Source: Immundisolibacter cernigliae (GTDB taxonomy: Bacteria; Pseudomonadota; Gammaproteobacteria; Immundisolibacterales; Immundisolibacteraceae). Taken from it: 64,000 nucleotides of DNA. The translations under genes and the position numbers were made by a program. The notes beneath the pieces are model-generated. The model had not been told where the DNA came from. It saw nothing but the letters and a program-made list of their open reading frames with translations, and searched no databases. Below are positions 1 to 9,219 of the stretch, piece after piece (positions within the stretch are counted from its first letter, which is position 1; the number at the start of each line of letters is the position of its first letter). The stretch lies in the NCBI RefSeq assembly GCF_001697225.1, contig NZ_CP014671.1, positions 2,480,001 through 2,544,000 on the forward strand, given 5' to 3'.

Positions 1-1979
1 AGTTCTGGGACGGCCCGGAGCCGCCGCGCAAGGTGGAAATCCGCTTCGATGGCCGGCAGATCGCCGGCCTGTATGGCGATGAGGGTGAGCTGCCGCTGCT
101 GCGCCTGGAGCCGGAATTCATCGGCGGTTTCTATCCGGCCAGCAACGAGGACCGGCTGCTGGTGCGCCTGCCGGAGGTGCCGCCGGCACTGATGCAGGCC
201 CTGCTGACGCTGGAGGATCGGGACTTCTACAGCCACCGCGGTGTGTCGGCGCGTGCCATCGCGCGCGCCCTGTGGGCGGATGTGCGGGCCGGGGCGGTGG
301 TGCAGGGCGGCAGCACGCTGACCCAGCAACTGGTCAAGAACTACTTCCTGACCGCCGACCGCACCGTGTGGCGCAAGCTCACCGAGGCCATCATGGCGGT
401 GCTGCTGGAAACCCACTACAGCAAGGACGACATTCTGGAGTCCTACCTGAACGAGGTGTTCCTGGGTCAGGTCGGCGGGCGCGGCGTGCACGGCGTGGCG
501 CAGGGCGCGATGCTCTACTTCGGCCGCCCGCTGGGCGAACTGGATACCGGCCAGCTGGCGCTGCTGGCCGGCATGGTGCAGGCGCCGTCCCACTACGACC
601 CGCGCCGTCACCCCGAGCGCGCCACGGCGCGGCGCAACCTTGCCCTGCGCCTGCTGGGCGAGCAGGGTCAGTTGACGCCCGAGCAGGTCGCCGCCGAGCA
701 GGCCAAGCCGCTGCGGGTGGTCAAGCGCAGTTCCCTCACGATGGCCCGCTATCCGGCCTTCCTGGACCTGGTGCGGCGCCAGTTGCAACGCGACTACCCG
801 GAACAGGTGCTGCGCAACGACGGCCTGCGCATCTTCGCCACCATGGATCCGGCGGTGCAGGTGGCGGCCGAGGCGGCAGTCACCGAACAGGGTGGCGCGC
901 TCGCCAAGCAGCGCAAGCTGCCCGATCTGCAGATGGCCGCCGTGGCGGCGGACATCGCCACCGGCGAGGTGCTGGCGCTGGTCGGCGACCGCGACCCGCG
1001 GTTCGACGGCTACAACCGGGCGTTGGACGCCCAGCGCCAGATCGGCTCACTGGCCAAGCCGGCGGTGTACCTGACCGCGCTGGGGCAGCCGGAGCGCTTC
1101 AATCTGGCCACGCGCCTGGACGACCGGCGCATGTCGGTGCGTCTGCCGAGCGGCCAGAGCTGGCAACCACGCAATTCCGGTGACGACTATGCGGGCGACG
1201 TGTCCCTGCTGCGTGGACTCGCCGAGTCGCGCAACAGCGCCACGGTGGCGCTCGGCCTGCAGGTCGGTCTGCCAAGCGTGCTCAAGACCCTGCGGTCGCT
1301 GGGCGTGACGCGCGACTTGCCCGAAGTGCCGGCCGTGATGCTGGGCGCAGTCGAGCTGACTCCGTTCGAAGTCACGCGCATGTACCTGACGCTCGCCGCC
1401 GGCGGTTTTCGGCTGCATCTGCGCGGCATCCACGCCGTGACCGACAAGGACGGCAAGCCGCTTGCCAGCTACCCGCTGTCGGTGGAGCAGAAACTCGATC
1501 CGGCGGCGGTGTTTCTGGTCAACACGGCTCTGCAGGAAGTGGCCCGCAATGGCACCGCGCGGGCGTTGGGGCGCGTGCTGCCGGGCCTGAACGTGGCCGG
1601 CAAGACCGGCACCACCAACGACAGCCGCGACTCCTGGTTTGCCGGCTTCACCGGCAACACCGTGGCCGCCGTGTGGGTAGGCCTGGACGACAATGGCCAG
1701 ACCGGCCTGTACGGCGCCAGCGGCGCCATGCGCATCTGGACCGACCTGATCGGTCGCCTGCCGGCGGTGCCACTGACTCTGGCCGAGCCGCCCGGCATTC
1801 GCTGGGTGCAGGCACCCAATGGCCCCTGGCTGCCGGCGGCGCAGTGTCCGGGCGGCTTTGGCATGCCGGTGCTGGACGGCGGTGCGCCGTCCGGGTCCGC
1901 GCCCTGCGACGGCGCCGCCATTTCACCTCCGCAAGACAAGGACGACGACTCATGGCGCTGGCTGCGCAAGCTGTTCTGA
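1..1979 (+). CDS. mrcB: Penicillin-binding protein 1B (5' end outside window)
   Basis: Bifunctional class A PBP that polymerises and crosslinks peptidoglycan in the periplasm. The frame is open to the left edge (codons from base 3 read FWDGPEPPRK before the first GTG at 33), so the cytoplasmic tail, membrane anchor and most of the UB2H-like region are missing. The glycosyltransferase domain shows EDRDFYSHRG, GGSTLTQQLVKN and YLNEVFLGQ. The transpeptidase domain shows the SxxK motif in GSLAKP (Ser codon at 1047), SRN as SxN, and KTGTTND. The C-terminus overlaps the next gene by 28 bases. Family assignment is firm; the true start lies outside the window. Confidence 0.95.
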   Translation, partial: FWDGPEPPRKVEIRFDGRQIAGLYGDEGELPLLRLEPEFIGGFYPASNEDRLLVRLPEVPPALMQALLTLEDRDFYSHRGVSARAIARALWADVRAGAVVQGGSTLTQQLVKNYFLTADRTVWRKLTEAIMAVLLETHYSKDDILESYLNEVFLGQVGGRGVHGVAQGAMLYFGRPLGELDTGQLALLAGMVQAPSHYDPRRHPERATARRNLALRLLGEQGQLTPEQVAAEQAKPLRVVKRSSLTMARYPAFLDLVRRQLQRDYPEQVLRNDGLRIFATMDPAVQVAAEAAVTEQGGALAKQRKLPDLQMAAVAADIATGEVLALVGDRDPRFDGYNRALDAQRQIGSLAKPAVYLTALGQPERFNLATRLDDRRMSVRLPSGQSWQPRNSGDDYAGDVSLLRGLAESRNSATVALGLQVGLPSVLKTLRSLGVTRDLPEVPAVMLGAVELTPFEVTRMYLTLAAGGFRLHLRGIHAVTDKDGKPLASYPLSVEQKLDPAAVFLVNTALQEVARNGTARALGRVLPGLNVAGKTGTTNDSRDSWFAGFTGNTVAAVWVGLDDNGQTGLYGASGAMRIWTDLIGRLPAVPLTLAEPPGIRWVQAPNGPWLPAAQCPGGFGMPVLDGGAPSGSAPCDGAAISPPQDKDDDSWRWLRKLF

Positions 1980-2506
1980 ACCGCCGCTCGAAGCCGTGGT
2001 GGCGGCTGTTGCTGGCCGGCCCGCTGTTGCTGGCCGGTTGCGTCAGCGCGCCGCCGCCGCGGCCTGAGCCTCCGCCGCCGCCGCCCGTCAGTCAGGCGCC
2101 ACAGGCGCCCTTGCCGCCGGCGCAGCCCTTGCCCAGGCCGCAGCCGCCGACATCGGCCATCATCCGGCCCGGTCCGCCGCCGTCAGCGCCACCAGTCAGC
2201 GCCACCCCCGCGCCGCCGGCGCAGCCGACGGCCACCGGCTCGCTGGTCGCAATGGCCGACCGGCAGGCCGCCGCCGGCGACTATGCGTCCGCGGCGGCGC
2301 AGCTGGAGCGGGCGCTGCGCATCCGGCCGCAGGATCCGGTGCTGTGGCAGAAGCTGGCCTGGCTGCGCCTGCAAAACGGCGACTTCGATCAGGCGGCGAC
2401 GCTGGCGTCCCGCTCAGACTCCCTGGCCGGCAACAACGCTGCCGTGCGCGAACAGAACCGGCGCATCGTCGATCTGGCGCGCGCCCGCCAGCGGCCCAGC
2501 GAATAG
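1952..2506 (+). CDS. Proline-rich TPR-like lipoprotein
   Basis: Predicted outer-membrane lipoprotein of 184 residues. The N-terminus has basic residues, a hydrophobic stretch and a lipobox LLLAGC, followed by a long Pro-rich linker and a C-terminal part (from about residue 95) that resembles two tetratricopeptide helices pairs, for example AAAQLERALRIRPQDP. The ATG at 1952 lies inside the 3' end of mrcB, a 28-base overlap that implies translational coupling. Short TPR lipoproteins next to PBP1b are plausible cell-wall synthesis accessory proteins (as LpoB is for E. coli PBP1b), but there is no clear LpoB sequence match, so this role is inference. Confidence 0.85.
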   Translation: MALAAQAVLNRRSKPWWRLLLAGPLLLAGCVSAPPPRPEPPPPPPVSQAPQAPLPPAQPLPRPQPPTSAIIRPGPPPSAPPVSATPAPPAQPTATGSLVAMADRQAAAGDYASAAAQLERALRIRPQDPVLWQKLAWLRLQNGDFDQAATLASRSDSLAGNNAAVREQNRRIVDLARARQRPSE

Positions 2507-2508
2507 CC

Positions 2509-3123
2509 ATGAGCTCGCCGCCCGATCCGCCGTCCGGCGCGCCGGCCCAGTTGCAGGATTCGCAGTTTCTGGAGGCGTTGCGCGGGCAGATGCTGAACTT
2601 CGCCCGCCTGCAGCTGCGCGACGACGACCTGGCGCAGGACGTGGTGCAGGAATCGCTGCTCAGCGCGCTGAAGAACGCCGGCTCGTTTCGAGGCCAGGCG
2701 GCGTTTCGGACCTGGCTGTTCGCCATCGTCAAGAACAAGGTCATCGACGCCCTGCGCCAGCGCCAGCGCTGGGTCCAGCCCGACCAAAGCTCGGATGACG
2801 ACGACGCCGAGGAATGGTTGGACCGCCTGTTCGATCGGAACGGTCACTGGCAGCCCGCCCAGCAACCCCGGCCGTGGGGCGATCCGCAGCGCAGCTTCGA
2901 GGACAAGCGGTTCTGGGAGGTGTTCGCCATCTGCCTGGACCGCCTGCCGGCGCGCCAAGGGCGCTTTTTCATGATGCGCGAGTACCTTGGCCTGGAGGCG
3001 GACGAGATCTGTAAGAACGCCGGCCTGACGCGGACTAACCTGCATGTGATCCTGCACCGCGCCCGCTTGCGCCTGCGCGAGTGCCTGGAAAACGGCTGGT
3101 TCGATGGGGGGCGTGATGCTTGA
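2509..3123 (+). CDS. ECF-type RNA polymerase sigma factor
   Basis: Sigma-70 family protein of 204 residues with only regions 2 and 4, as in extracytoplasmic-function sigma factors. Region 2 shows DDLAQDVVQESLLSAL and FRTWLFAIVKNKVIDALRQ; region 4 shows LPARQGRFFMMREYLGL and a recognition helix near TRTNLHVILHRARLRLREC. A D/E-rich insertion (residues about 90-130) separates them. The ATG at 2509 starts two bases after the lipoprotein stop. The stop overlaps the start of the zinc-finger gene by 8 bases, the usual sigma/anti-sigma arrangement. Targets are unknown; the position downstream of PBP1b hints at envelope stress. Confidence 0.92.
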   Translation: MSSPPDPPSGAPAQLQDSQFLEALRGQMLNFARLQLRDDDLAQDVVQESLLSALKNAGSFRGQAAFRTWLFAIVKNKVIDALRQRQRWVQPDQSSDDDDAEEWLDRLFDRNGHWQPAQQPRPWGDPQRSFEDKRFWEVFAICLDRLPARQGRFFMMREYLGLEADEICKNAGLTRTNLHVILHRARLRLRECLENGWFDGGRDA

Positions 3124-3295
3124 TTGTCGTGAAGCTACCGGTTTGATGTCGCAGGCACGCGAGCGCCACCTGTCGCTGCGCGAGCGTGTGGCGCTGCGCC
3201 TGCACTGGGCCATGTGCAGTGCCTGCCGCCGCTTCGACCGGCAGATGGACGTGCTGCGCGCGGCGGCGCGCCGCTTTGCCAGCCGCTCCGACTAG
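3116..3295 (+). CDS. Zinc-finger anti-sigma-like small protein
   Basis: Protein of 59 residues with a putative H-x3-C-x2-C zinc-binding motif (HWAMCSAC), typical of the zf-HC2/ZAS anti-sigma family. No transmembrane segment is visible, so it would be a soluble regulator of the sigma factor encoded just upstream. The ATG at 3116 overlaps the sigma gene stop (ATGCTTGA) and gives the N-terminus MLDCREATGLMSQ normally seen in this family; an in-frame ATG at 3104 is possible but less likely. Function as a direct anti-sigma factor is inferred from motif and context. Confidence 0.85.
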   Translation: MLDCREATGLMSQARERHLSLRERVALRLHWAMCSACRRFDRQMDVLRAAARRFASRSD

Positions 3296-3341
3296 TGACG
3301 ACGCGCCGCCGCCCTGAGCTGCGGCGCACACTGGCTCAGCG

Positions 3342-3866
3342 TTAGGCCAGCCAGCGGCGCGCCAGCCAATGGTCGAGCGACACCACGCCCGGGCCCCGGG
3401 CGATCAGGTACAGCAGCACCGTGGCCCAGACGCCGTGGGTCGGGTAGGCGTCCGGATAAACGAACACCTGGATCACCAGCGTCATTCCCAGCAGGCCGAG
3501 CGCCGACAGGCGCGTGGCGAGGCCGAGCAGGATCAGCACCGGCAGCGCGTGTTCGGCCAGCGCCGCCAGGGTCGCCGCCCACAGCGGCGGGATCAGCGGC
3601 AGGGCGTATTCGTGCTCGAACAGGAATACCGCCGAGTCGGCCAGGCGCGGCCAGCCCAGCGTGAAGGTGCCCTGCACAAGGTCGATGGCGAAGCCCTCGA
3701 CCTTGGTCTGCCCCGACAGCCAGAACACGGCGGCGACCGAAAACCGCCCGAGCAGCGCGATCAGGCTGTGCGGGATGCGCGCGAACAGCGTGTTCAGGCG
3801 GGCGAGGCCGCGCAGCGGCGCGGCCAAAAGGCTGACCCGCGGCGGGCTTGCGGTATTCCCGCTCAT
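3342..3866 (-). CDS. DoxX-family membrane protein of bufferin operon
   Basis: Integral membrane protein of 174 residues with about four hydrophobic helices, matching the DoxX family. It is the last gene of a four-gene minus-strand operon with bufA, bufB and bufC; its ATG overlaps the bufC stop by 4 bases. DoxX proteins are often the fourth partner of DUF2282/DUF692/DUF2063 operons (HvfABCD in Haemophilus and Legionella nomenclature). Their molecular role there is not established; quinone-linked or disulfide-related membrane redox functions have been suggested for other DoxX proteins. Confidence 0.88.
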   Translation of the reverse strand: MSGNTASPPRVSLLAAPLRGLARLNTLFARIPHSLIALLGRFSVAAVFWLSGQTKVEGFAIDLVQGTFTLGWPRLADSAVFLFEHEYALPLIPPLWAATLAALAEHALPVLILLGLATRLSALGLLGMTLVIQVFVYPDAYPTHGVWATVLLYLIARGPGVVSLDHWLARRWLA

Positions 3867-4636
3867 GGGGTGTCTCCAGCGTGGCTCAAGTCGATCAGGG
3901 CGCCGCAGCGGATCAGTCCGGCGAGTGCGGCCGGCAGGTCGAAGGCGCAATCCGCGCCGCCGGCCGCCTCGACGGCGGCGCCCAGCGGTTGGCCGTCGAT
4001 CAGTGCGGCGGCGAAGCGGCCGGCCGCAGCCTCGACCGGGATCACCTCGACCTCCAGCTCACGGCACAGCACCCAGGCGGTTTCGGCGCAATCGAGGTCG
4101 ATCGCCGCCAGCTCGCCCGCCCCCTGATGCGCGGCCCAGACGGACACCATTGCGTAGGACGAGTGCAGCACGGCGAAGGAGGGGTGCAGGTGCAGGCGGG
4201 CGGCCGCCAGGTCGGCCGTATCGGCCAGCCGGGCGGCGAGGCCTGCGCCGGAAAGCGGCGGTGCGTCGGCGGCGTGCAGCGCCGTCAGGCGCAGCCACTC
4301 CAGGCGCGCGACATCGGGCAGATAGGGCAGGCCCTGCGCCGGCTCGAAGCGGGCGATGAAATCGGCGAAGCCGGCGCCGTACTCGGCCATGACCGGGCTG
4401 TGCGGGGGCGAGGCGCGCACGAAGCAGCGCCCCATGGCCTGGAAGAACGCCTCGCCCACCAGCGTGCGGGTGACCGGAAAGCTGTCCGCCAGCACGCCCA
4501 GCAGCGAGACCATGACGTTGTTGCGATAGACGGCCAGACGCGTCGCCGGGTCCGAGCCGTTCCAGGCGCACACATCGGCCGGCGGCGGCAGCGCCGGGTC
4601 GAGCAGCGCGCGGGCGAAGGCGGCCTGATCGATCAT
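3863..4636 (-). CDS. bufC: DUF2063 protein, bufferin maturation partner BufC
   Basis: Protein of 257 residues of the DUF2063 (HvfC/BufC) family. The N-terminal helical half contains the family-typical NGSDPATRLAVYRNNVM region, followed by LADSFPVTRTLVGEAFF; the C-terminal half is an Ala-rich alpha/beta domain. In bufferin and methanobactin-type systems this protein is the partner that binds the precursor peptide and presents it to the iron enzyme. The ATG at 4636 overlaps the bufB stop by 4 bases and the stop overlaps the DoxX start by 4, so the operon is translationally coupled. The ATG was chosen over an upstream frame extension that only shadows bufB. Confidence 0.9.
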   Translation of the reverse strand: MIDQAAFARALLDPALPPPADVCAWNGSDPATRLAVYRNNVMVSLLGVLADSFPVTRTLVGEAFFQAMGRCFVRASPPHSPVMAEYGAGFADFIARFEPAQGLPYLPDVARLEWLRLTALHAADAPPLSGAGLAARLADTADLAAARLHLHPSFAVLHSSYAMVSVWAAHQGAGELAAIDLDCAETAWVLCRELEVEVIPVEAAAGRFAAALIDGQPLGAAVEAAGGADCAFDLPAALAGLIRCGALIDLSHAGDTP

Positions 4637-5532
4637 GCCGGCAGCGCTTGGGCGTTGCGGCGCGCATCCTGCAGGATGCGCTCGGCCTGGCGCGCCTCGG
4701 CCAGCAGCACGGCGAGGGCGGGAATGTCGTTGTCGCGCTCGATCAGCGTCGGCATCGGGCCCACACGCTCGATTGCCTGGGCATAGAGCGCCCACACCGC
4801 CTGGGCGACCGGCGCGCCATGGTTGTCGATGAGCAGGGGATCCCTGGCGCCATCCACGGCCTCGGCATGGCCGGCGAGATGGATCTCGCCCACCGCGTGC
4901 AGCGGCAGGGCGGCCAGTTCGCTCAGGGGGTCGCGGTGGTGGTTGACGCAGGACACATACAGGTTGTTCACGTCCAGCAGCAGGCCGCAGCCGGTGCGTC
5001 GGACCACCTCGCCGATGAAGGCCGCCTCGGGCAGGCTCGAGGCGCGGCTTTCAAGATAAGTGGCCGGATTTTCCAGCAGCATGCGCCGACCCAGCCGCTC
5101 CTGGACGCGCTCGACGTGCTCGCAGACCCGCGCCAGCGCGGCCGTGTCGTAGACCACCGGCAGCAGATCGTTCAGGCACACCGCGCCATCGCGCGACCAG
5201 GCCAGGTGCTCGGAAACCCACGCCGGCTGGTAACGCGCCAGCAGCCGTGCCAGGCGATCGAGATGGGCCGGGTCCAGATCGGCGCCGCCGATCGACAGGC
5301 CCACGCCGTGCACCGACAGCGGATAGTGTTCGGCGATGCGCCCCAGGTAATGGTGGAAGGGGCCACCGGCGCCGAAGTAGTTCTCGGCATGGATTTCGAA
5401 AAAGCGAAGCGCCGGGCGGCGCTCCAGGATGTCGTGGAAATGCCGGGGTTTCAGGCCCAGGCCCGCCAAGGGTTGGGACGGGCAGGCGGGCGCCGCGGGG
5501 CGGCATCTCGCCTGCAAGGACGGCGCCGTCAT
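4633..5532 (-). CDS. bufB: MNIO (DUF692) iron oxidase BufB, bufferin maturase
   Basis: Multinuclear non-haem iron oxidative enzyme of the DUF692/HvfB family, a TIM-barrel protein of 299 residues. In characterised relatives it converts cysteines of the precursor peptide into heterocycles (thiooxazoles in bufferins). Candidate metal ligands sit in conserved motifs: FFEIHAENYFG, SVHGVGLSIGG, SEHLAW, LLENPATYL, DVNNLYVSCVNH and GEIHLAGH. It lies 29 bases downstream of bufA and overlaps bufC by 4 bases. Family identification is strong; the actual modification is inferred from the family. Confidence 0.93.
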   Translation of the reverse strand: MTAPSLQARCRPAAPACPSQPLAGLGLKPRHFHDILERRPALRFFEIHAENYFGAGGPFHHYLGRIAEHYPLSVHGVGLSIGGADLDPAHLDRLARLLARYQPAWVSEHLAWSRDGAVCLNDLLPVVYDTAALARVCEHVERVQERLGRRMLLENPATYLESRASSLPEAAFIGEVVRRTGCGLLLDVNNLYVSCVNHHRDPLSELAALPLHAVGEIHLAGHAEAVDGARDPLLIDNHGAPVAQAVWALYAQAIERVGPMPTLIERDNDIPALAVLLAEARQAERILQDARRNAQALPA

Positions 5533-5561
5533 GACCGCGCTGCGCCTGCCCGCCGACGGGT

Positions 5562-5870
5562 TTACTTGTCCTTTTCCGCGAACGCGGCGAGCTGGCCGAA
5601 GCCGGTCGGCGAGGTGGGCGAGGCGGTCTGCCCGCAGCTGCCCTTGGGCACCAGCTTCCAGGCGTTGCCCTGGTGGTCACGCACCGAGGTGCCGGCGCAG
5701 GTGGTGCCGGGGCCGGCGGCGCAGTCATTCTTGCCCTTCAGCGCCACGCCGAAGCACTTTTCCTGGTCGGCCGCAGCCTGTGCCGGTGCGGCAGCCAGGC
5801 TCAGGGCGAGTCCGAAGGCGGCGGCAAGGCCGGCGCCGGCGAGCGTCAGGGAGGGGTTGTCGCGTTTCAT
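5562..5870 (-). CDS. bufA: Bufferin precursor peptide (DUF2282/HvfA family)
   Basis: Predicted exported precursor of 102 residues. The signal peptide (about 1-32, ending AAAPAQA) is followed by a core with exactly four Cys at positions 39, 50, 58 and 79 within [19 protein letters not shown] and KGSC, the pattern of DUF2282 bufferin precursors. After the last Cys comes a Thr/Ser/Pro-rich tail ending AFAEKDK. Bufferins are ribosomally made, post-translationally modified peptides that chelate copper in the periplasm. An AGGA lies about 8 bases upstream of the ATG. First gene of the operon; no metal-responsive operator was recognised upstream. Confidence 0.92.
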
Positions 5871-6175
5871 GGGCGTATTCCTGGTTGGAGGGATGTGACG
5901 GCGAGCCGTGCGCTATTCCGACGGCCTGCGTGCAGTAGACGCCGCCCACGCGGATGTCTTACAGGCCGTCCCTTGAGTTCCGAAGCGGCTGGCGGCACGC
6001 AGCGGGCGCTCCTGCCCAACAGGTACGGCATCCCGTGTCCGGCGAAAACGGCCCGCTGGCGTCGATGCCCTCGGCGCGCGCCCGCGCCACCGCCGATGCG
6101 TGGGCGTGTACCGCGCCGGGGGAGCTCAAGAAATGCCACGGACGGCATTTTTCAGCGTCTCCCAGCCGGCCCGGG
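5871..6175. other. Intergenic region upstream of bufA
   Basis: About 305 bases between bufA and htrA. It must hold the bufferin promoter on the minus strand, but no convincing -35/-10 pair or metal-regulator operator was recognised. The right end (6102-6163) is a copy of a 62-base repeat also found at 44876-44937, whose hairpin probably ends htrA transcription. The open frame over 5867-6148 (minus) is Arg/Pro-rich, covers the bufA ribosome-binding site and was not accepted as a gene. Confidence 0.6.
6102..6163. repeat. 62-base intergenic repeat, copy 1, with hairpin
   Basis: The last 33 bases (6131-6163) are identical to 44905-44937, and the first 14 bases (6102-6115) are identical to 44876-44889, with the same total length and a partly diverged middle. 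It contains the palindrome AAATGCC-ACGGAC-GGCATTT, an AT-flanked hairpin. In both copies it sits just past the stop codon of a minus-strand gene (here htrA, 13 bases away), which suits a transcription terminator. The arms are less symmetric here than in copy 2. Confidence 0.75.
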
Positions 6176-7327
6176 TCAGTTTTCCGCCTGCAGGGTGACG
6201 GTCACGGTATGCCGTTGCCCGCCGCGCAGCAGACCGATCTGCACCACGTCACCGACGGCGAAATCGTCGAGCCGGGCGAGCAGGCGCGCCACCGAATCCA
6301 CCGGCTTGCCGGCCACGGCGATGATGATGTCGCCCGCCGCCATGCGCCCGTCGGGCGTCAAGCGCAGCGGTATGAGGCCGGCGGCCGCCGCCGGCGAGCC
6401 CGGCGCGACATCCAGCACGAACACGCCCTCGATGCCCAGCAGCCGGCTCAGGCGCGCGTTGACGCCTGCGTCGACTTCCATACCCAGCGCCGGGCGCGTG
6501 TATTTGCCGTGCCGGATCAGCTGCGGCACCACGCGCATGAGCGTGTCGACCGGAACGGCGAAACCAATGCCGGCCGAGGCGCCCGAGGGGCTGTAAATGG
6601 CGGTGTTGATGCCGATCAGCCGACCGGCCGAATCCAGCAGCGGTCCGCCCGAATTGCCCGGGTTGATGGCGGCATCGGTCTGGATCAGATGCTCGACGAT
6701 GCTGCCGCCCTCTTGCGCCGGCAGGCTGCGGTCGAGCGCCGAGACGATGCCTGTGGTCAAGGTCCAGTCGAGTCCGAACGGGTTGCCGATGGCAAACACC
6801 TTCTGCCCGACCTGCAGGTCGTGGCTGGTGCCGATCGGCACCGGCGGAGGCGACTTGAAAGCAACGCCTATCCTGAGCACGGCGATGTCGTGCGCTGGGC
6901 TTGCCCCCACCAGGCGCGCCGGATAGTCGCGCCCGTCGGCCAGGCGCACCGTGGCGCGCGCAGCGCCCTGGATGACGTGAAAATTGGTCACCACGTGCCC
7001 CGCCTCGTCCCACACGAAGCCCGAGCCGGTGCCGCGCGGCACGGCAAACACGTTGCGCGTCCAGAAATCCTGCACCAGCTCGGAGGTACTGATGTAGACC
7101 ACCGAGTCGCGGGTGCGCTCGAACAGTTCGATGACGGCACGCTCGTCCGCACCGAGCGCGCCGCGTGGCGTGATCGTGCGCTGCTCGCCCTGCCAGGCAG
7201 CCATGCCGGCTGGTTGCCAGGTGCCCAGCAGCAGGCAGCCGAGCAGGGCCGACAGCCGCAAACCGCGCCCGCGGCGGCGTTTCAGGTCCGCTGAGCCGGC
7301 ACGCCCGATGGCGCGCTGATCATCCAC
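6176..7327 (-). CDS. HtrA/Deg-family periplasmic serine protease
   Basis: Trypsin-like protease with one PDZ domain, 383 residues, anchored or secreted through an N-terminal hydrophobic segment (about 23-44). The catalytic triad is visible: His117 in NFHVI, Asp147 in HDIAVLRI and Ser226 in GNSGGP. The PDZ domain covers about residues 275-375. A single PDZ makes it more like DegS/AlgW or HhoB than DegP. The start is a GTG 14 bases after cbpM, chosen because the membrane segment must be included; no strong ribosome-binding site is visible. Probably cotranscribed with cbpA-cbpM and heat inducible. Confidence 0.92.
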   Translation of the reverse strand: MDDQRAIGRAGSADLKRRRGRGLRLSALLGCLLLGTWQPAGMAAWQGEQRTITPRGALGADERAVIELFERTRDSVVYISTSELVQDFWTRNVFAVPRGTGSGFVWDEAGHVVTNFHVIQGAARATVRLADGRDYPARLVGASPAHDIAVLRIGVAFKSPPPVPIGTSHDLQVGQKVFAIGNPFGLDWTLTTGIVSALDRSLPAQEGGSIVEHLIQTDAAINPGNSGGPLLDSAGRLIGINTAIYSPSGASAGIGFAVPVDTLMRVVPQLIRHGKYTRPALGMEVDAGVNARLSRLLGIEGVFVLDVAPGSPAAAAGLIPLRLTPDGRMAAGDIIIAVAGKPVDSVARLLARLDDFAVGDVVQIGLLRGGQRHTVTVTLQAEN

Positions 7328-7341
7328 GGGCCGCTGGCGGT

Positions 7342-7650
7342 TCAGCCCGGGCCGTACAGGGCCAGGCGTGCGCGCAGGCGCTCGATCTCCTCGATGAGGT
7401 CACCGACCAGGCCGGCCAGTTCCGGCGCCGCATCGAAATCCCGCTCGATCTGCCGCAGCCGGCGCGCCCGGCGCAGGGTGGCCGACGAGAACCGCCAGAC
7501 GCCGTCGAGCGACTGCGCCTGCGGCAGCAGGCCAGCCTCCAGGTGTTGCTGCAGCCACTCGACGTCGGCCGCGCAGGCGGCCGCCAGCTGCTCCAGCGTC
7601 AGCCACGATTCGTCGAGCAGGGTGCCGATCAGTGCTTCTTTCTGGTTCAT
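7342..7650 (-). CDS. cbpM: Chaperone modulator CbpM
   Basis: Protein of 102 residues of the CbpM/MerR-like family. In E. coli CbpM binds the J-domain of CbpA and inhibits its co-chaperone and DNA-binding activity. The N-terminal half resembles a winged-helix motif (DESWLTLEQLAAACAADVEW) and the C-terminal half is a helix rich in charged residues (LVGDLIEEIERLRARL). The gene starts 6 bases after cbpA, the conserved cbpA-cbpM order, and is followed by htrA after 14 bases. Confidence 0.87.
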   Translation of the reverse strand: MNQKEALIGTLLDESWLTLEQLAAACAADVEWLQQHLEAGLLPQAQSLDGVWRFSSATLRRARRLRQIERDFDAAPELAGLVGDLIEEIERLRARLALYGPG

Positions 7651-7656
7651 CGCCGT

Positions 7657-8589
7657 TCAGTTCCTGCGACGTGGATCGAAAGCCAATTCCCGCGCCATCG
7701 TTGCATAGAGTTCCCGGGCCCGCGGCGTGTCCGCCGGCGGCAACACCACGCGTACGTGCAGCAGCAAATCTCCCGGCGGATCGCCCGGCAGGCCCTTGCC
7801 GCGCACGCGCAGCTCGGTACCGCTTTGGGCGCCCGCCGGAATGCGTACCTTGACCTCCCCCACCGGCAGAGGCACCGCGATCACCGCGCCCAATGCGGCC
7901 TCCCACGGCGCCACCGGCAAGGTCATGCTCAGATCGCGGCCCTCGACGCGATAGCGCTCGTCGGGCTTGAGGTGCACCTCGAGCAGCAGATCGCCGGCCG
8001 CACCGCTGCCGGCGCCCGGATATCCCTGTCCGGCCAGGCGAATCAGCTGACCTTCGCGCACGCCCTTGGGAATGGTCACGCGCAGCGTGCGCTGCACCAT
8101 GCTCAGGCGGCCGGTTTGTTTATCGACCGTCGGCACGCGCAGCGTGATGTCGCGTGTGGCGCCGGTGAAGGCGTCCTGGAGGTCAAGGTAGATATTGGCG
8201 TAATGGTCCTGGCCACGCCCATGCGCGGCGCGGCGCGGGCGTGCGCCCATGTGCCCGAACAGCTCGGTAAAGAAATCGGAGAAATCGGCCGCCTCGTGCG
8301 GCGAGAAGCCGCCGCCCGAGAACTCGAATCCGGCATCCCATCCCGGCGGCGGACGAAATTCCTCGCCGGGCCGATGGCCGGGTCCGAGCTGGTCATAGGC
8401 GGCGCGTTTTTCGGGGTCCGACAGTACCGCGTAGGCCTCGTTGACCTCCTTCATGTGCTGCTCGGCGTCCGGTTCCTTGGACACGTCCGGGTGGTACTTG
8501 CGCGCCAGCTTGCGAAAGGCGCGCTTGATGGCGTCGGCAGTCGCGTCACGCGGCACGCCGAGAATCTGGTAGTAGTCCCGAAACTCCAT
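7657..8589 (-). CDS. cbpA: DnaJ-like co-chaperone CbpA
   Basis: Class II J-domain protein of 310 residues without the DnaJ zinc fingers. The J-domain (about 4-68) carries the HPD motif in [11 protein letters not shown]; a G/F-like linker (about 70-115) includes [13 protein letters not shown]; two C-terminal substrate-binding beta domains follow. The ATG at 8589 is preferred over the GTG two codons upstream because AAGGAG lies 5 bases before the ATG and overlaps the GTG. It heads a probable cbpA-cbpM-htrA operon and has a sigma-32-like promoter at 8631-8659. Confidence 0.93.
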
Positions 8590-8630
8590 GGGCACTCCTT
8601 GGCAGTGCTAGCCGTTGACCGGGGTTTGGA

Positions 8631-8659
8631 AAATAGGGCTGCGCCGCGCCGGACTCAAG
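8631..8659 (-). promoter_or_regulatory. Sigma-32-like promoter of cbpA operon
   Basis: Read on the minus strand, CTTGAGT (8659-8653), a 14-base spacer and CCCTATTT (8638-8631) match the heat-shock sigma factor consensus (CTTGAAA and CCCCATNT) with few mismatches. It lies about 42 bases upstream of the cbpA ATG. Its partner at 8694-8723 faces the other way. This is sequence matching only, not mapped transcription. Confidence 0.6.
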
Positions 8660-8693
8660 GGCAGCGACAGCCTACCCTCAACCCTGTGCAAGC

Positions 8694-8723
8694 TCTTGAA
8701 AGCTGTCACGGCGGCACCGATCT
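8694..8723 (+). promoter_or_regulatory. Sigma-32-like promoter of hsp20 cluster
   Basis: CTTGAAA at 8694-8700 is an exact match to the heat-shock -35 element. After 15 bases, ACCGATCT (8716-8723) resembles CCCCATNT. It is about 60 bases upstream of the first hsp20 ATG. The pair with the divergent cbpA promoter suggests joint heat-shock control of both operons. Confidence 0.6.
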
Positions 8724-8784
8724 TTCGCTTGCGTTCAACTTGCAGGGCGGTCATCGGACCGACCCGTACACCAGGAGGACTGCC

Positions 8785-9219
8785 ATGGCGATTTACAGAC
8801 CCCCGTTCTCGCGCAATCTGTTCGCGGAGTTCGACCGTTTGCGCCGCGAGCTCGACCAGGCTTTCGAGCTGTCGCCGAGCATCCGCGGCCTGGGCGCAGG
8901 CTTTCCGACACTCAACATCGGCTCCACGCCCAACTCGGTGGAAATTTTTGCCTTCGCGCCCGGTGTGGATCCGGCCGCCCTCGATGTGCAGATCGAGAAA
9001 GGCGTGCTCACCATCAGCGGCGAACGCAAGGCCCCGCAGGTGCCGGAAAAGGCCACCGTGCATCTGGGCGAGCGCTTTGCCGGACGTTTTCACCGCGTGG
9101 TGAGCCTGCCGGACAGCATCGACCCGGCCTCCGTCACGGCCAGCTACCGCGACGGCGTGCTGCACATAAGCGCGCAGCGCAAGGATTCTGCACTGCCGCG
9201 CCGCATCAACATCCAGTGA
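8785..9219 (+). CDS. Small heat-shock protein Hsp20, copy 1
   Basis: ATP-independent holdase of the alpha-crystallin family, 144 residues. The alpha-crystallin domain spans about 45-140 with SVEIFAFAPGVDPAALDVQ, the GVLTISGER strand and a C-terminal GVLHISAQRK strand. A strong AGGAGG (8773-8778) precedes the ATG. The gene lacks a clear C-terminal IXI motif; it ends RRINIQ, where INI may serve that role in oligomerisation. First of three tandem hsp20 genes. Confidence 0.93.
   Translation: MAIYRPPFSRNLFAEFDRLRRELDQAFELSPSIRGLGAGFPTLNIGSTPNSVEIFAFAPGVDPAALDVQIEKGVLTISGERKAPQVPEKATVHLGERFAGRFHRVVSLPDSIDPASVTASYRDGVLHISAQRKDSALPRRINIQ

Follow-up and report, generated by a model that had tools for sequence, protein, structure and literature searches.

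The 64,000-nucleotide stretch of Immundisolibacter cernigliae DNA analysed here (the window) carries a Buf1-type bufferin cassette that, with a probability of roughly 80%, is controlled by a switch of the sigma-E/MseR type, namely an ECF sigma factor and a small ZAS-type anti-sigma factor whose genes face the operon. This control unit had been missed in the initial annotation. The features of the cassette, in window coordinates, are as follows.

2498-6152: whole cassette (ECF sigma, anti-sigma, buf operon and promoter), missing from the corresponding site of two congeners
2509-3123, plus strand: ECF sigma gene, tail-to-tail with the buf operon (NCBIfam TIGR02943, 247.5 bits, cut-off 162.2)
3116-3295, plus strand: small ZAS-type anti-sigma gene, overlapping the sigma gene (NCBIfam antisigmaE, 73.6 bits, cut-off 50)
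3866-3342, minus strand: doxX, DoxX-family membrane protein, 174 aa (Pfam DoxX, 56.7 bits, E=4e-15)
4636-3863, minus strand: bufC, DUF2063 plus RRE-like partner (PME type 1), 257 aa (Pfam DUF2063, 94.6 bits, E=4e-27)
5532-4633, minus strand: bufB, MNIO bufferin maturase, 299 aa (NF050167 MNIO_BufB, 370.7 bits, cut-off 310)
5870-5562, minus strand: bufA, Buf1 (DUF2282) precursor, 102 aa (Pfam DUF2282, 78.7 bits, E=3e-22)
5775-5870, minus strand: predicted Sec signal peptide, cut after AQA (residue 32), read from the sequence by eye
5697-5723, minus strand: codons of the central Cys50 and Cys58, the expected thiooxazole sites (alignment position and PMC12452194)
5565-5633, minus strand: conserved C-terminal tail after Cys79, of the TxSxTSPTGxGQLxxFKEK type
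5963-5936, minus strand: ECF-type promoter TGTAAG-N16-CGTCTA, 65 nt before the bufA ATG

On the strength of its family profiles, the set of four genes is near certainly a canonical Buf1 (DUF2282) bufferin operon, ordinary and complete. The initial annotation had proposed a complete bufA-bufB-bufC-doxX operon of the bufferin family, and the genes were indeed found in this order on the minus strand, with Pfam matches above cut-off for all four. The identities suggested for the last three products (DUF692 MNIO, DUF2063 partner and DoxX protein) were borne out by the MbnB_TglH_ChrH (MNIO; E=1e-103 for bufB), NF050167, DUF2063 and DoxX profiles, and family membership by the DUF2282 precursor, a BufB-type MNIO with its ligands, the DUF2063-RRE fold of the partner and the DoxX protein. 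The translational coupling claimed for the whole operon holds for the bufB-bufC and bufC-doxX junctions, where ATGA overlaps are present and bufC and doxX each start with ATG (4636 and 3866, respectively), but not for bufA and bufB, which are 29 nt apart. Likewise, the proposed unit of 3342-5870 contains the operon genes, but the unit is larger, about 2498-6152 with the promoter, sigma and anti-sigma. The window BufA scored only 20.6 bits against the BufA2 model NF050166 (cut-off 60), giving no indication of Buf2 membership, and assignment to the HvfA/oxazolin (EGKCG) group was not supported either (HvfC equivalog 59.5 vs 142 bits; HvfX 36.4 vs 80 bits). Judged by sequence, the operon adds a new member to an established family, matches the gig operon of Cupriavidus and by itself is one further example among thousands.

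The precursor was described as a signal-peptide protein with exactly four core Cys (39, 50, 58 and 79), and all four were invariant with respect to 46 aligned relatives (a 47-sequence alignment); the h-region of the signal peptide is also conserved in relatives. A four-electron oxidation is expected to give a mass loss of about 4 Da per Cys. The idea that the MNIO acts on all four residues does not agree with published work on Buf1, in which the central pair alone is modified and the first and last Cys form a disulfide (PMC12452194); two thiooxazoles, not four, would therefore be expected in BufA. In related products the ring has been assigned as a 5-thiooxazole (PMC13097082). By homology, we infer that the window BufA would undergo Cys modification and bind copper.

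The Thr/Ser/Pro-rich tail after the last Cys had been taken as a possible family variation. An alignment of BufA tails indicates instead a fixed feature of one clade: a G-x-G-Q motif was present in 77/77 precursors adjoining the closest MNIO relatives and TS[PSA][TS] in 71 of these 77, whereas 18 DUF2282 proteins from more distant members of the class had neither motif. Mean entropy was lowest in the core (0.48), intermediate in the tail (0.82) and highest in the signal peptide (1.35). In an AlphaFold2 model of BufA, residues 71-100 reached a pLDDT of 88-89, above that of the first half of the core, although the model was built with a conserved alignment, which can raise pLDDT. A disordered or idiosyncratic extension was ruled out by this conservation together with the model confidence, and Foldseek searches with the BufA model returned no match to a known fold. 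By its sequence the tail is a signature of one Buf1 clade and, as a conserved element of that clade, it is probably functional; the model suggests that it is probably part of the mature folded domain.

The maturation enzyme appears well preserved. Residues H75, H109, E154, N190, H218, D236, H238 and E265 of BufB were invariant in 92/92 aligned MNIO sequences, so that no loss of the metal ligands was seen. Relatives in the PDB are 3BWW (from H. somni, an HvfB relative), TglH and MbnB. N175, D242 and H244 are essential in HvfB (PMC13419390), and by sequence motif these correspond to N190, D236 and H238 of BufB. BufC gave no matches to PDB entries by sequence, either singly or with a profile; its predicted model (pLDDT 91.9), however, matched TglI (8hci, 8hi7) and NGO1945 (3dee) with E values of 1e-4 or better, and on this model BufC is the expected DUF2063-RRE partner fold, PME type 1. 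These data leave an inactive MNIO and export of the precursor as an unmodified, plain thiol peptide as a very improbable alternative, given that the BufB ligand positions are all intact and invariant and that the BufC partner and the BufA precursor, with its invariant Cys, are intact too. Among plasmid records only distant BufB relatives were found (best 68%); many plasmids of Escherichia coli and some of Klebsiella carry relatives of about 56% identity, annotated only as DUF692.

The regulatory reading of the cassette, which we consider likely, starts from the anti-sigma factor. Its N-terminus, MLDC, is followed by His30-x3-Cys34-x2-Cys37, and its gene lies downstream of that of the ECF sigma; Cys4, His30, Cys34 and Cys37 reproduce exactly the numbering of meningococcal MseR (PMC2893595). 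In Neisseria the corresponding sigma-E consensus, GTMAGBWTT-N12/13-CGTCTAAH, governs an MNIO operon and msrAB (PMC2893595), and the bufA promoter shares with it the core letters and the spacing. When the buf1 site, GTAAGACAT-N13-CGTCTACT, was set against this consensus, the -35 core, the spacing and CGTCTA fitted, but the outer -35 bases and the positions after CGTCTA did not. The element is enriched before bufA genes: 78 bufA upstream regions shared TGTAAS-N15/16/17-CGWCTA, 28 of them perfectly and 27 with one deviation (thus 55/78 loci matching 11 or 12 of 12 positions), against 0 perfect and 0.5 one-deviation sites in shuffled controls. We infer that sigma factors of the window type read a TGTAAS-N16-CGWCTA promoter. 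Autoregulation of the window sigma, as in Neisseria, was not supported: the best site upstream of its gene matched only 8/12 positions, which is no clear copy of the motif.

The bufferin operon could be real and the sigma pair facing it adjacent by chance, with bufA under a housekeeping or copper-responsive regulator. The window sigma gene indeed comes after penicillin-binding protein and lipoprotein genes on the same strand, and a strong homologue of it was found within about 6 kb in only 11/80 related MNIO loci. Most close relatives thus have the promoter and lack such a neighbour, and in them the promoter must be read by a sigma whose gene lies at another locus. Moreover, in C. metallidurans deletion of the neighbouring rpoQ did not lower gig expression but raised it under metal (PMC10304878). 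The genome also holds two sigma/anti-sigma pairs of the MseR type, and the reader of the promoter may come from either. We nevertheless regard a chance neighbourhood as unlikely, because the bufA promoter is itself of the sigma-E/MseR kind, sigma and anti-sigma recur beside other members of the related loci, and the sigma gene belongs to the same insert as the operon. This last point follows from the genes upstream of sigma, which are shared with congeners that lack both the sigma and the buf genes.

The limits of the insert were provided by these congeners. In one of them (G001), blastn showed window positions 1-2497 and 6153-8827 to abut, at 95-96.5%; in the other (G002) the left edge is as in G001 and window ends 2496 and 6186 nearly abut. 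In both, the penicillin-binding protein and HtrA genes that flank the cassette in the window lie close to each other. Since these two congeners cleanly lack window positions 2498-6152, the sigma and anti-sigma genes travel together with the promoter and the operon, and the empty site common to both favours a gain of the cassette here rather than two identical losses. No shared repeat of note was found at the two ends of the cassette and no transposase was seen within it, the ORFs of the block leaving no room for one. The clean insertion site shows joint movement of switch and operon: a four-gene bufferin set in a 3.7-kb block with its own stress-sensing switch, an arrangement known in outline from related bacteria.

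The promoter motif is not confined to bufA. At about 2.265 Mb (L001, genome positions 2263280-2267065) the genome contains a second bufferin cluster, Buf2, with genes for a precursor (NF050166, 95.1 bits, cut-off 60), an MNIO and a DUF2063 protein, head-to-head with another ECF sigma and ZAS anti-sigma, the latter with an apparent C-terminal membrane segment. A published survey found sigma genes in Buf1 but not in Buf2 clusters (PMC12452194), which makes the present Buf2 cluster an exception. The congeners keep Buf2 but contain no close homologue of the window sigma. With the N16 spacer, the consensus has exactly two exact sites in the 3,243,537 bases of the genome, one before bufA and the other before bufA2 (genome positions 2,265,984-2,266,011, 12/12 positions), where about 0.3 would be expected from base composition. 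With spacers of 14-19 allowed, there were 4 exact sites against 3 in the reversed control, so the argument rests on position and not on number. A copy with one mismatch (L136:1501-1528) stops 59 nt short of the probable msrP start codon, an ATG at L136:1588, and a gene for a membrane protein follows msrP where msrQ would be expected; of the remaining one-mismatch sites, most fall within genes or lack an obvious target. Outside this genome the bufA2 promoter varies (10/12 in congener G001, 8-11 in others), and common control of Buf2 is therefore not general.

A Rhodocyclaceae genome (G065) contained ten exact promoter sites. At loci L155, L159, L161-L164 and L166-L168 they precede a Buf1 bufA1, genes for two HvfA-like peptides, msrPQ and msrAB, as well as thioredoxin, arsS, MTA phosphorylase and FAD oxidoreductase genes. 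A signal-bearing peptide of NPCAAK repeats that matches no known family (L160:1153-1413) is encoded behind the same promoter, and the adjoining gene (L160:1786-2469) encodes a protein in which these repeats are joined to a CNTCH haem-type motif. No MNIO gene was found within the 3 kb examined around it; the repeat peptide is possibly a new type of precursor.

Known systems resemble the cassette in different respects. In gene content it matches gigPABT-rpoQ-rsqA of Cupriavidus metallidurans, with the same four families in the same order and an ECF pair beside them; there, however, the sigma pair is divergent, the anti-sigma is predicted to be membrane-bound and control by RpoQ was not shown (PMC10304878), whereas here the pair is tail-to-tail with the operon and the anti-sigma is small and soluble. 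The GIG operon of Legionella (lpg2105-2108) also comprises the four families, but no linked sigma has been described and its regulation was tied to RpoS (PMC5413113). In regulation, a parallel is the sigma-E/MseR operon of Neisseria, NMB2140-NMB2145 (the gonophorin cluster in N. gonorrhoeae), which shares with the cassette an MNIO cluster, a sigma with a ZAS anti-sigma, the Cys/His positions of the latter, the promoter core and spacing, and a methionine sulfoxide reductase in the regulon (PMC2893595, PMC3240639). It differs in having an EGKCG-type precursor instead of a DUF2282 one, and sigma and mseR inside the operon instead of facing it. The bufferin 1 operon of Caulobacter vibrioides (CC3254-CC3257) is likewise of the MNIO-DUF2063-DoxX type, and the sigma-F regulon to which it belongs joins two paralogous MNIO operons and yedY (msrP) under one ECF promoter, as seems to be the case here (PMC3511200); in contrast to the small soluble ZAS protein and TGTAAS-N16-CGWCTA, its anti-sigma NrsF is a membrane protein and its promoter is GTAACC-N16-CGAA. 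RpoE7 of S. meliloti controls a similar DUF692-DUF2063 operon (PMC6180224).

Under the proposed sigma-E/MseR-type control, a cytoplasmic stress signal, either oxidation or copper displacing zinc, would inactivate the zinc-binding anti-sigma, and the freed ECF sigma would read TGTAAS-N16-CGWCTA. BufA would then be produced and held by BufC while the iron enzyme BufB converts Cys50 and Cys58 to 5-thiooxazoles. After export by Sec, the Cys39-Cys79 disulfide would close, the conserved tail would pack against the domain, and the exported BufA would capture excess periplasmic copper. DoxX would act in the membrane.

It is conceivable, though in our view improbable, that copper is not the main target and that BufA serves chiefly to counter oxidative or hypochlorite damage or other metals such as gold, chromate or cadmium. 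This promoter precedes msrPQ both here and in the Rhodocyclaceae genome, where msrAB and thioredoxin have it too; chromate and cadmium elicit a response of sigma-F in Caulobacter (PMC3511200), and gig responds to gold (PMC5413113, PMC10304878). Nevertheless, copper induces gig as well, in both Legionella and C. metallidurans (PMC5413113, PMC10304878), and bufferins bind copper and improve growth under copper stress (PMC12452194). Copper stress can itself oxidise periplasmic methionine, so that the copper and oxidation readings overlap.

What is useful in the cassette, beyond one more bufferin operon, is a testable regulatory picture: an anti-sigma with the residues of MseR, a promoter found at two bufferin operons and, in near-exact form, at msrPQ, and a clean insertion site for switch and operon. 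The broader proposition, that one promoter class of the sigma-E/MseR kind joins chemically different thiooxazole peptides (Buf1, Buf2, EGKCG type) and periplasmic methionine-sulfoxide repair across beta- and gammaproteobacteria, with the Buf1 cassette travelling with its own sigma switch, stands in our estimate at even odds; such a class would parallel sigma-F/NrsF in alphaproteobacteria. Among the papers searched, none combined bufferin, Msr and ECF. If the proposition is true, bufferins would be part of a shared periplasmic response to copper and oxidation, and not a stand-alone copper trap.
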